A stretch of 37,553 bases of DNA from a virus, in the IMG/VR virus record IMGVR_UViG_3300000956_000125, positions 1-37,553 of that record. One strand, given 5' to 3'. The position numbers and the translations under genes are program-made. Within the stretch, counting starts at the first letter, position 1, and each line of letters begins with the position of its first letter. The notes under the pieces are model-generated. The model worked only from the letters and a program-made list of their open reading frames with translations, was not told where the DNA came from and ran no database searches. Shown here piece after piece: positions 19,157-32,898 of the stretch.

Positions 19157-20062
19157 ATGCTAGAAGAATTCGTTACCAAAAACTTTAGCGCCGCCAATGA
19201 AGCGCTCATCGCCGTCCTGGACAAAATCATCCAGGAGTATTCGGCGCAAGGCTACCGCCTGAGCGTGCGCCAACTCTATTATCAACTCGTGGCGCGTGAC
19301 ATCGTTGAGAACACTCAGAAATCCTACAAACGCATCGCTGGCTTGGTGTCCGATGCGCGGCTGGCTGGACTGATTGATTGGGAAATGATCGAAGACCGGG
19401 GCCGCGAGACAATCACGCCGCCGATGTGGAAGAGTCCCGCTGAGATCGTTTTAGCGGCGGCGCGTCAGTTCGCAACGGATCGCTGGAAAGACCAGGATAA
19501 CCACGTTGAAGTTATGGTGGAGAAGGCCGCACTCGAAGGCGTGCTTATTCCTGTCTGCCGTGCCGAAGGCGTGCGCTTCACTGCGAACCGTGGCTATAGT
19601 TCGCAGTCGCTCATGTACGAGACTGGCAAGCGGCTTGAGCAGGCGCTATCCGATGGCAAAGATGTATACATGATTTATTTTGGCGATCACGACCCGTCTG
19701 GTATTGATATGACTCGTGACGTTTCGGATCGCTTGGAAATGTTCTGCCGGTCGGCTGTCGAAGTTCAACGGCTGGCTCTGAATTGGAATCAGATAGAAGA
19801 ATGGAAACCGCCGGAGAACCCGGCGAAACAAACCGACAGCCGCTTTATGCAGTACGTTGAACTGCATGGCGAGTCGTCTTGGGAACTTGACGCGGTGGAA
19901 CCGGCGACCTTAGCCGAACTTTGTCGTAGCGCGATTATAAAACTGCGCGACGAAGACTTATATCAGGAGGCGCTTATGCGCGAGGCCGAGATGAAACAAG
20001 AGCTAGAGCGCTTCGCCGTAGAGTACAACGAAGGCAGCAAGAAGAAAAAGAGCAAATCCTGA
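19157..20062 (+). CDS. TopoVIA/Spo11-like 'mini-A' protein (wHTH plus Toprim)
   Basis: N-terminal winged helix (about residues 35-75) with SVRQLYYQLV, matching the region that carries the catalytic tyrosine in TopoVIA/Spo11 (candidates Y41 or Y42). A Toprim domain follows: VEVMVEKAAL (E122) and MIYFGDHDPSGIDM (D177, D179), the metal-binding acidic residues. At 301 aa it fits the mini-A family of TopoVIA-like proteins described in mobile elements. No B (GHKL ATPase) subunit was seen in the window. The C-terminal tail is lysine-rich. SD AGGAG. Confidence 0.75.
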   Translation: MLEEFVTKNFSAANEALIAVLDKIIQEYSAQGYRLSVRQLYYQLVARDIVENTQKSYKRIAGLVSDARLAGLIDWEMIEDRGRETITPPMWKSPAEIVLAAARQFATDRWKDQDNHVEVMVEKAALEGVLIPVCRAEGVRFTANRGYSSQSLMYETGKRLEQALSDGKDVYMIYFGDHDPSGIDMTRDVSDRLEMFCRSAVEVQRLALNWNQIEEWKPPENPAKQTDSRFMQYVELHGESSWELDAVEPATLAELCRSAIIKLRDEDLYQEALMREAEMKQELERFAVEYNEGSKKKKSKS

Positions 20063-22853: not shown

Positions 22854-23615
22854 ATGCTTTTTCAATTCTCTTATCAAGGTCGTGAATACTCGCTCACTGT
22901 GGCCGCGCTTGCTATTGCGACTCTGTGCGCCAGCGCGACGGAGATAGGACTTGTGATCGCGTCGTGGATAGTTGAATTCAATCCGACTGGCCCGCAAGCA
23001 ATCGGCTTTGTGTCACTGGTATTTGTTTTGGCGTTATCGGCGGTCATGGCGTTTGTTGGTCTCAATCTGCTGATTGTGTTCTACGAGACCAACGACACGC
23101 ATGTCCAAGTCTTGCAAAAGCAGTGGCGCGAAGCGAATGGGGAACGGGAACCTTTGACCGAAGTACAGCAGCCAGTCTATCAGGACACGGTTCCGCTCAA
23201 TACCGCGCGTGGTTCGCGGGAGTTGGTGCTAGAGCGTCCGCTGACGTTGGCGCAGATCGAATTAGGCCGTGCGCTACAGGCGCTGTTTCTTCACGCCTGG
23301 AACACTGGCGAAGACATTTCTTCGGCGGCGCTGGTGGGTAAAGGCAAGCCACTGTCCAGCACCGAGGCCTGGGGGGAACTCACCGACTACGCTCACCAAA
23401 TGGGTTTTGTTAGCAAGGGCAACGGCAGTAAAACGGTTCTGGTGACCACCTACGAAACTGCGGTCAAGGGTGTATGGGGACGGCTGTCTAGAGTGAGTGT
23501 CCCAGTGGGGTACAAGGCCCCCAAGATCGCCCCCCTGCCCCAAGCGGCTTGGTCAAAAATTGAGCAGAGTGAGCGTAAAGCCGAAAGCAATATAAAGCTG
23601 TCGGAATGTCAATAA
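22854..23615 (+). CDS. Two-pass membrane protein with soluble domain, 253 aa
   Basis: Two membrane helices near the N terminus (about residues 15-39 and 51-75) leave a long cytoplasmic domain (residues 80-253) that is alpha/beta and alanine-rich. It overlaps the methyltransferase start by 10 bases. No family recognised; a phage-host membrane effector is one guess. Confidence 0.6.
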   Translation: MLFQFSYQGREYSLTVAALAIATLCASATEIGLVIASWIVEFNPTGPQAIGFVSLVFVLALSAVMAFVGLNLLIVFYETNDTHVQVLQKQWREANGEREPLTEVQQPVYQDTVPLNTARGSRELVLERPLTLAQIELGRALQALFLHAWNTGEDISSAALVGKGKPLSSTEAWGELTDYAHQMGFVSKGNGSKTVLVTTYETAVKGVWGRLSRVSVPVGYKAPKIAPLPQAAWSKIEQSERKAESNIKLSECQ

Positions 23616-24409
23616 GGTCTGGAAAAGCCGTGAAAAAGGTCGTTAAATTCATTTCACTCTTCGCGGGCATCGGTGGTCTTGATCTAGGACTCGAAAGAAC
23701 GGGGATGGAGTGCGTTGCTCAGGTTGAGATTGACGAATTCTGCCAAAAGGTTTTGAATAAACATTGGCCCAATGTTCCCAAGTTCAAGGATGTACGAGAT
23801 GTCGGAAAACACAACCTACCAACAGCAGAACTTATTTGCGGAGGCTTCCCTTGCCAGGATGTTAGCGTCGCCGGCGACAGACTTGGACTCGAAGGAGAAC
23901 GTTCAACGCTCTGGAGTGAGTTCTTTAGAATTGTTTGCGAAGTTCGTCCCGGATGGGTCGTTATTGAAAACGTCACAGGGTTACTTTCAAGTGACGATGG
24001 AGGGTTCTTTAGAAAAATTCTCAGAGAGCTTTCCGAAGTCGGGTATGATGCGGAGTGGAGAACTATTTCAGCTTGTGAATTCGGACTGTTCCACTTGCGA
24101 GAACGAGTCTTTGTTGTTGCCTACTCCCGTGCGGACTCTCGACCGGGGTTATTCGGTCGGGACTGCCAAGAGACTGGAGCAAGGAATAAAATCAAGGCCG
24201 AGTGGCGCAAAGATTGGCGTTTCGTTGAACTGGTTTCCACCGCTGCTGAACTTCTTTTTTGTTGGCAAAAAGAACTTGGTCAATCCCCGCTTGTTAGAGT
24301 GGTTGATGGGATTCCCCATCTCTTGGACAGAATTAGAGCAAACGGAAACGCCGTAGTCCCGCAATGCGCAGAGTTTATCGGGCACTGCATTTTGAATGCA
24401 ATTCGGTAA
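23606..24409 (+). CDS. C5-cytosine DNA methyltransferase (Dcm/M.HhaI type)
   Basis: All main motifs of the family are present: FAGIGGLDLG (residues 19-28, SAM binding), GGFPCQDVS with catalytic C83, VIENV (119-123), RERVFVVA (165-172) and RIRANGNAVVPQ (242-253). At 267 aa the target-recognition part is short. An in-frame GTG at 23630 is an alternative start. The gene is the host frame of a second overlapping gene (23799-24356). It probably modifies phage DNA against restriction. Confidence 0.85.
   Translation: MSIRSGKAVKKVVKFISLFAGIGGLDLGLERTGMECVAQVEIDEFCQKVLNKHWPNVPKFKDVRDVGKHNLPTAELICGGFPCQDVSVAGDRLGLEGERSTLWSEFFRIVCEVRPGWVVIENVTGLLSSDDGGFFRKILRELSEVGYDAEWRTISACEFGLFHLRERVFVVAYSRADSRPGLFGRDCQETGARNKIKAEWRKDWRFVELVSTAAELLFCWQKELGQSPLVRVVDGIPHLLDRIRANGNAVVPQCAEFIGHCILNAIR
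23799..24356 (+). CDS. Overlapping gene inside the methyltransferase, 185 aa
   Basis: Lies entirely inside the methyltransferase in another frame. The ATG at 23799 has its own SD (AAGGA, 8-nt spacing); the frame is also open to an ATG at 23772. It starts MSENTTYQQQNLFAEASLAR, has SFPKSGMMRSGELFQL in the middle, and ends NPRLLEWLMGFPISWTELEQ then TETP. These blocks resemble phage proteins with FPKSGMMRNGxLY and WLMGFPxGWT that I recall seeing annotated beside or within Dcm genes (recall only). It could be an unrecognised methyltransferase partner. Confidence 0.6.
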   Translation: MSENTTYQQQNLFAEASLARMLASPATDLDSKENVQRSGVSSLELFAKFVPDGSLLKTSQGYFQVTMEGSLEKFSESFPKSGMMRSGELFQLVNSDCSTCENESLLLPTPVRTLDRGYSVGTAKRLEQGIKSRPSGAKIGVSLNWFPPLLNFFFVGKKNLVNPRLLEWLMGFPISWTELEQTETP

Positions 24410-32052: not shown

Positions 32053-32081
32053 GTGGTGGCAACGCTTGAACGTTCCACCAC
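32053..32081 (+). other. 11-bp hairpin upstream of the homing endonuclease
   Basis: GTGGTGG-c-AACG-cttgaa-CGTT-CCACCAC: 7 plus 4 base pairs with one bulged C. No T-run follows, so it is not an intrinsic terminator. It lies between the MuF stop and the hairpin that holds the SD of the next gene. Confidence 0.55.
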
Positions 32082-32086
32082 ACGAC

Positions 32087-32106
32087 CAAAGCATGGAGGT
32101 GCTTTG
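32087..32106 (+). promoter_or_regulatory. SD site in the loop of a hairpin touching the start codon
   Basis: CAAAGC (32087-32092) pairs with GCTTTG (32101-32106) around the 8-nt loop ATGGAGGT, which holds the SD (GGAGG). The ATG is the next base (32107). This could display or mask the SD and so set translation of the nuclease. Confidence 0.6.
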
Positions 32107-32898
32107 ATGAAAGAAATTGTAAGCGGTATCTACCAGATACGCAATAACATAAACGGAAAGAAGTACATAGGCTCCGAAAAAGATGTTTATGGAAGAATAA
32201 AAACGCATTTATCTCTATTGAAGCGCGGAAAGCACCATAGTAAACATCTGCAAAGTGCTTGGAATTTGTATGGTGAGGTAAGTTTTTCTTTTGAATTAAT
32301 TGAGTGCTGTGAGGGAGTCAAGCACAAGCTGATAGAACTGGAACAGCGTTACATTGACTTCCTGAAACCTGAATACAATGTTCTGCCTGTTGCCGGTAGT
32401 TGTTTGGGAAGAAAGATTTCTGATGAAACAAAAAGGAAGATGTCGGACGCTGCAAAAGGAAGAGTGATAAGTGCAGAACAGATAGAAAGAATAAGAGTTT
32501 CCAACACTGGCAATAAATATAACGTTGGAAAAAAGCGCAGCAATGAATCAAGAATGAAGATGTCTATTTCGCACAAAGGAAAAACAAACTGCTTAGGAGT
32601 GAAACATACCGCAGGGGCACGGGCGAATATGTCCAAGGCGCATAAAGGGAAGAAGCTGACACAACAACACAAGGATAGAATATCTATGAGCAACAAGGGC
32701 AGGGTTCTATCTAAAGATACCAGGGCGAAAATGTCGGCGGCGTCTACTGGAAAGAAGATAAGTAAGGAACAGAGATTGAAGCAATCGCTGGCGATGACAG
32801 GGAGAGAATTAACGAAAGAACACAAGGATAAACTTTCAAAATCTGGAAAGGCGGCGTGGTTATTGCGTAAAACAAAGAAAGCTGAGTTGGCTAAATGA
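32107..32898 (+). CDS. GIY-YIG homing endonuclease with NUMOD3 repeats
   Basis: Start at ATG 32107 (SD GGAGG); the frame is open to 32053 but enters the hairpin. GIY (residues 7-9), YIG (20-22), R30 and E79 form the nuclease core. The C-terminal half has about seven NUMOD3-like repeats (GRKISDETKRKMSDAAKGR, GKKLTQQHKDRISMSNKGR, and others), typical of SegE-like free-standing homing nucleases. The codon use is A-rich with many AGA, unlike its neighbours, suggesting transfer. It sits between head genes. Confidence 0.85.
   Translation: MKEIVSGIYQIRNNINGKKYIGSEKDVYGRIKTHLSLLKRGKHHSKHLQSAWNLYGEVSFSFELIECCEGVKHKLIELEQRYIDFLKPEYNVLPVAGSCLGRKISDETKRKMSDAAKGRVISAEQIERIRVSNTGNKYNVGKKRSNESRMKMSISHKGKTNCLGVKHTAGARANMSKAHKGKKLTQQHKDRISMSNKGRVLSKDTRAKMSAASTGKKISKEQRLKQSLAMTGRELTKEHKDKLSKSGKAAWLLRKTKKAELAK

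Follow-up and report, generated by a model that had tools for sequence, protein, structure and literature searches.

Two-polypeptide and nested cytosine methyltransferases

M.EaeI is a two-polypeptide system like M.EcoHK31I, and Lee, Kam and Shaw are said to have found in 1995 that the gene for the large polypeptide of M.EcoHK31I also contains, in a different reading frame, the gene for the small one. M.EcoHK31I (YGGCCR) is described as a two-polypeptide enzyme whose larger chain has motifs I-VIII and X together with the predicted TRD, and whose smaller chain has motif IX (PMC3404938). In M.HhaI-like enzymes motif IX is part of the small domain, which recognises DNA (PMC3404938). The same source presents M.AquI (CYCGRG; Karreman and de Waard 1990) as a naturally split C5-methyltransferase with motif X in the small subunit (PMC3404938). 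In the phage ShiLan, the methylase contains an inserted HNH homing endonuclease, which occupies a different frame from the methylase and is confined to its own insertion (PMC11855218).

The DNA analysed here (the window, a 37.6-kb virus record) carries a C5-cytosine methyltransferase gene, alpha, with a second open frame, beta, nested in its +1 frame. By layout alone the pair can be likened to M.EcoHK31I: alpha has motifs I-VIII and X and lacks IX, and motif IX is found in beta. The nesting of the small subunit gene in the large subunit gene, in a different frame, also agrees with what is reported for that enzyme. The two differ in that M.EcoHK31I is part of an enterobacterial restriction-modification system, whereas the window gene is apparently a solitary phage methyltransferase, and in that the TRD is assigned to the large subunit in M.EcoHK31I, whereas the window alpha has only about 70 residues between motifs VIII and X. 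Searches of plasmids and E. coli genomes did not identify the M.EcoHK31I sequence. A small subunit of the M.AquI type, with both IX and X, is not that of the window, where X lies in alpha and the whole of beta is nested; it occurs in the split loci L003, L004 and L033, and M.AquI is similar to the split forms of phages, such as gp6/gp5 of Mycobacterium phage Firecracker, Lilbooboo 32/33 and L033.

The same nested layout as in the window is present in Paenibacillus phage Lily (gp62/gp63), a pair without assigned function, in which the database entry labels gp63 as 'g62 internal gene' and the beta proteins of Lily and the window are about 31% identical. The ShiLan methylase is, like the window gene, a phage C5-methyltransferase with second-frame coding, but its second frame belongs to an inserted endonuclease, whereas in the window it is native enzyme sequence that is dual coding; ShiLan gp70 (locus L010) is a fused relative, which keeps the first half of beta in the +1 frame. 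The literature searched yielded no report of phage genes in which motif IX is nested. The two-subunit kind of enzyme is already known; the breadth of the nested form and the strength of selection in two frames appear to be new in that literature.

The methyltransferase gene and its nested frame

The window encodes terminase subunits, a major head protein, a DNA primase, a DnaB-like helicase and a topoisomerase-like protein (19157-20062; phrog_6247, E=1.6e-109). An ORF flanked by structural genes (32053-32898) has, judged by eye, the look of a GIY-YIG homing endonuclease (GIYQIRNNINGKKYIGSE).

Alpha (23606-24409, plus strand, as are all features below; 267 aa) matches PF00145 (E=6.8e-55), the match being confined to its residues 14-175 (profile positions 2-163 of 324), and the solved sequence closest to it is that of M.HhaI. 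The initial annotation had listed motifs I, IV, VI, VIII and X, and all of them are readable in the methyltransferase frame: motif I (LFAGIGGLDLG, 23657-23689), recognised from the sequence, the family alignment A4 and the alignment with M.HhaI; motif IV with the catalytic PC (GGFPCQDVS, 23840-23866), motif VI with ENV (ENVTGL, 23966-23983) and motif VIII with RxR (RERVFVVA, 24098-24121), each placed by the M.HhaI and family alignments; and motif X (GNAVVPQ, 24344-24364), in which synonymous constraint stops with the end of beta at 24356. Motif I, the PC, ENV and RxR place alpha among the C5-methyltransferases. Neither the Pfam match nor a search of the frames revealed motif IX in alpha between VIII and X; it is present only in the +1 frame. 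No noteworthy promoter or terminator was seen inside the alpha gene.

The position and sequence of beta had been given correctly in the initial annotation: it occupies 23799-24356 (185 aa and a stop) in the +1 frame inside alpha, and is recognised by the openness of that frame, synonymous constraint, its HMM score and a match to phrog_1008. Counted from the first ATG, the ORF spans 23772-24356 (194 aa), wholly within alpha, and 23790 is a further in-frame start besides 23772. The start at 23799 is better supported, because MSE or MSD starts are found in the relatives L011, L017, L046, L057 and L065. The Shine-Dalgarno sequence proposed for this start (AAGGA, 8 nt before the ATG) is present at 23786-23790, but across the family the support is weak: 41 of 64 relatives have four or more matching nt ahead of some candidate start, against a background of 0.15 per codon with several candidate starts each, and such counts discriminate poorly.

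Block 1 of beta (FPKSGMMRSGELF, 24030-24068) lies opposite EVGYDAEWRTIS of alpha, in a zone where identity at the fourfold sites of alpha is about 0.68 compared with a baseline of 0.28, and the motif IX block (NPRLLEWLMGFPISWTEL, 24282-24335) lies in a zone where it is about 0.86. The overlap had been claimed to fall on conserved parts of both proteins, and this is the case: the same DNA reads GYDAEWRTIS in alpha and GMMRSGELF in beta, and likewise VVDGIP and WLMGFP, and both zones are constrained. Between the blocks, LLPTPVRT (24114-24137) corresponds, by sequence comparison, to a single copy of the PTP module, of which relatives carry several. In L034, L076, L085, L253 and L256 this '(L/W)PTPxxxDxxG' stretch forms a module of about 30 residues with variable copy number, opposite which a matching 'VADxxxxG' repeat is read in the alpha frame. 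From their position between motifs VIII and IX, we infer that the PTP modules are target-recognition elements, and their repetition could provide variable target recognition.

The database search suggested for beta was productive in part. The family phrog_1008, annotated as DNA methyltransferase, matches beta residues 10-125 (E=3.2e-19), but no family for beta was found in Pfam, NCBIfam or PADLOC. Comparison with PDB sequences gave chance matches only, and viral contigs searched with a single beta sequence gave no match.

Motif IX and structure models

When the full beta profile was compared with 43 full-length canonical phage methyltransferases, the two aligned in one place, motif IX (prob 88, E 2.8e-6), with LNPxxVEWLMGFPxGWTDL of beta lying on the canonical RRLTPxECERLQGFPDxWT. 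Cut segments gave a prob of 96.9, a figure inflated by the fact that the segments were pre-selected. At the level of sequence comparison, the last block of beta is shown to correspond to motif IX. The profile A5, searched against solved methyltransferases, matched in motifs I-VIII only. The identification of beta as a putative motif IX subunit, similar to that of M.EcoHK31I, goes beyond what the initial annotation had proposed.

Beta alone was modelled poorly (mean pLDDT 57, pTM 0.24), which may be what is expected of a part that needs a partner and is not proof of one. The AlphaFold2 model of a fused relative (L255) adopts the C5-methyltransferase fold (pTM 0.77), with about 90 pLDDT in the IX-X region and mostly below 50 in the PTP region, and its best Foldseek match was M.HhaI (E 1.2e-15).

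Nested, split and fused layouts

Dual coding had been suspected to be widespread and conserved, and the survey agrees with this view. In 80 viral loci picked by alpha only, the motif IX block was found in the +1 frame in 70 and in frames 0 and +2 in none; closure of the second frame by stops in many lineages did not occur. Seven of the other ten loci carry an alternative nested family and three carry neither, one of these being a diverged form and one a cut contig.

A sample picked by beta comprised 160 loci, 80 of them viral and 80 from bacterial and archaeal genome records, with an Alkanophagales archaeon, Bacillota, Bacteroidota, Actinomycetota, Cyanobacteria and Pseudomonadota among the taxa. 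Beta was nested in the +1 frame, with alpha spanning the block, in 156 of them; alpha contained motif X in 153 of these 156, and no standalone beta without alpha was found among the 160. A translated search of GenBank phages matched 215 records, and in the class to which one gammaproteobacterial locus belongs, 16 of 369 genomes had a match. E. coli prophages, e.g. that of strain PT62 (L503), also carry the nested gene. In the E. coli PCP07014 prophage (L504, 1874-2635), one damaged spot stops both the alpha and beta frames. Among the records read, usually alpha only is annotated, the exceptions being Lily gp63 and the split genes of actinophages.

The motif IX block occurs in three layouts, i.e. 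nested, split and fused. In the split layout (26 loci classed as +1 split, e.g. those named above), alpha ends after motif VIII and the +1 gene holds IX and X; in split phages the +1 frame is an annotated second gene. In the fused layout (18 loci, e.g. L252-L266 and ShiLan gp70), the PTP modules, IX and X all stand in the methyltransferase frame, in a chain of the pattern PTP...WMMGWPxGWV...GNGVVPQQA. A separate case is L073 (1501-2700), with a canonical motif IX (RRLTPAECERLQGFPDGWT) in the +1 frame and motif X in frame 0, an arrangement that could stem from a frameshift or a misassembly, or be a nested form of recent origin.

A predicted two-subunit methyltransferase

The locus combines dual coding, motif IX in beta, a constant association of beta with alpha, and the existence of split and fused versions. 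As motif IX is missing from the outer protein and carried by the inner one, we consider it quite probable that alpha and beta form a two-subunit C5-cytosine methyltransferase, encoded by one stretch of DNA, which methylates the phage genome. One mRNA would yield both proteins, beta being translated from an internal +1-frame start, presumably that at 23799. Alpha (23606-24409) would supply motifs I-VIII and X, in the large catalytic domain, and beta (23799-24356) motif IX and probably the target-recognition segment. The two would associate into one enzyme, a putative heterodimer, and this enzyme would methylate the phage genome, most likely protecting it against host restriction, as the family to which it belongs suggests.

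Beta might also be translated and yet be an independent phage protein, e.g. a regulator or a host-takeover factor, that is housed in alpha. The first half of beta is kept where motif IX stands in the methyltransferase frame, in fused and in canonical genes (see below), as such a protein would lead one to expect. However, motif IX is absent in alpha and present in beta, not one standalone beta was met in 160 loci, and the fused and split versions put the block in the enzyme, so we regard beta as unlikely to be such an independent protein.

It seems very improbable that programmed frameshifting yields a single chain that starts with the N-terminal half of alpha and continues in the beta frame. 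In L003, L004 and L033, the split phages in which alpha stops after motif VIII, such a shift would produce an enzyme with the full set of motifs I-X, but in the nested form two opposite shifts would be required, because motif X is in the alpha frame. Moreover, block 1, which lies opposite the interval between motifs VI and VIII of alpha, would be left out of the fusion, even though it is strongly conserved.

Selection in both reading frames

The openness of the second frame was assessed by keeping the alpha protein fixed, shuffling its synonymous codons and comparing the stop-free runs. The +1 run of the window is 199 codons long compared with 110 expected (p=0.023), and across 64 alpha genes the mean is 213 compared with 101 (p<=0.05 in 54/64, p<=0.01 in 46/64), whereas the +2 frame equals expectation (62 vs 62; p<=0.05 in 3/64). 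As these 64 genes were picked partly for carrying the motif, selection was measured on a cleaner sample of 77 loci, i.e. the window and 76 loci found by alpha alone.

In the 77 loci, third-base identity at the fourfold sites of alpha was 0.283 5' of beta, 0.675 at block 1 (FPKSGMMRSG), 0.855 at the motif IX block (NPxxxEWLMGFPxGW) and 0.285 past the end of beta, 0.255 being expected from base composition, and the bootstrap intervals of alpha-only DNA and the beta blocks did not overlap. Pairs with less than 42% alpha identity gave 0.27, 0.62, 0.80 and 0.26 for the 5' part, block 1, motif IX and the 3' part, respectively. The test of synonymous constraint that had been recommended at the outset reveals raised identity only at the two blocks of beta, and purifying selection beyond that imposed by the methyltransferase is strong in these two zones. 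The claim that the two proteins are locked together in evolution holds there, but not for alpha residues 66-110, most fourfold sites of which are near free (about 0.3).

Identity at alpha codon positions 1/2/3 changes from.64/.73/.33 in alpha-only DNA to.48/.70/.66 in the motif IX block, where the third position of beta is the least identical (0.48) and its first and second are high (0.70, 0.66). The codon periodicity flips to the frame of beta, the pattern expected if the +1 frame encodes a protein, and not that of an RNA element. That a conserved DNA or RNA element, and not a protein, fixes the synonymous sites would suit the concentration of the constraint in two short zones, but it is hardly credible given this periodicity, the +1 frame that is open far past expectation across a linker of variable length, and the RNA near the beta start, which folds no better than shuffles.

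A beta HMM built without the window scored the +1 peptide of the window at 150 bits and the +2 frame at -0.7, and 2000 synonymously shuffled alphas gave a mean of 65, sd 10 and a maximum of 106 bits. An echo of alpha in the +1 frame exists, e.g. AEDSPAKTS, which is the +1 reading of GGFPCQDIS and whose fourfold sites are free, but it cannot account for the beta signal. The notion that beta is untranslated, its open frame and blocks merely echoing conserved alpha residues and codon use, as the shuffled average and AEDSPAKTS might suggest, is already refuted by the synonymous sites of alpha, which are conserved only within beta and at its motifs, unless a nucleotide element mimics the +1 codon periodicity, and is further contradicted by a real score above all 2000 shuffles, a silent +2 frame and the annotated second gene of split phages. 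The data show dual coding with selection in both frames, and the observation of a nested second gene is confirmed.

A second nested family and the first half of beta

Within the two-subunit reading, the first half of beta needs a role beyond motif IX, because it is constrained in fused genes and a related nested frame is present in canonical ones. In the fused genes, +1-frame constraint is kept opposite alpha residues 126-135 (0.91 vs about 0.45 in 16 related sequences). In L252-L266 and L010 (ShiLan gp70), the first half of beta is open and constrained in +1, and motif IX is in the methyltransferase frame.

In canonical phage methyltransferases, where motif IX is in frame, the +1 frame holds another nested gene, here called type B, whose end block reads YYLSPKACxGILRRAxKRGKxLPxxL. 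It was found in about 80 loci (L332-L411); P1 dmt has it, as do genes of Vibrio, Streptococcus and mycobacteriophages, and examples are L332 902-1360, L069 1676-2182 and L329 (phage P1) 1516-1716. Type B loci picked by the beta peptide are biased by that choice; in the unbiased sample, picked by the methyltransferase alone, type B occurs in 60 of 79 loci. Fourfold identity is 0.29 at residues 1-45, 0.69 at residues 150-195, where many sites reach 0.9-1.0, and 0.29 at residues 200-300. The first part of type B aligns with that of beta (prob 98.8, part of which is the alpha echo). No relative of type B was found in NCBIfam, PADLOC or PDB, and its PHROGs match, phrog_16143, merely repeats the name of the host gene. 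We know of no precedent for a nested family without motif IX in canonical phage methyltransferases.

These observations allow for a tentative suggestion, which we find slightly easier to doubt than to believe, that most phage C5-methyltransferase genes contain an ancient nested +1 gene with a separate function in its first half, with type B in the canonical genes and type A, the form of the window, later joined to motif IX in the window's lineage. If this is true, the beta of the window would be a nested gene that captured a piece of its host enzyme.

Implications

Outside small viruses, few nested genes are known that are dual-coding throughout and clearly under selection in two frames. The gene described here recurs in phages, in many bacterial phyla and in archaea, and it is mostly unannotated. 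It offers hundreds of natural alignments in which the evolution of one stretch of DNA under two proteins can be measured. In practical terms, codon optimisation of a phage 'Dcm' gene before cloning would remove part of the enzyme.
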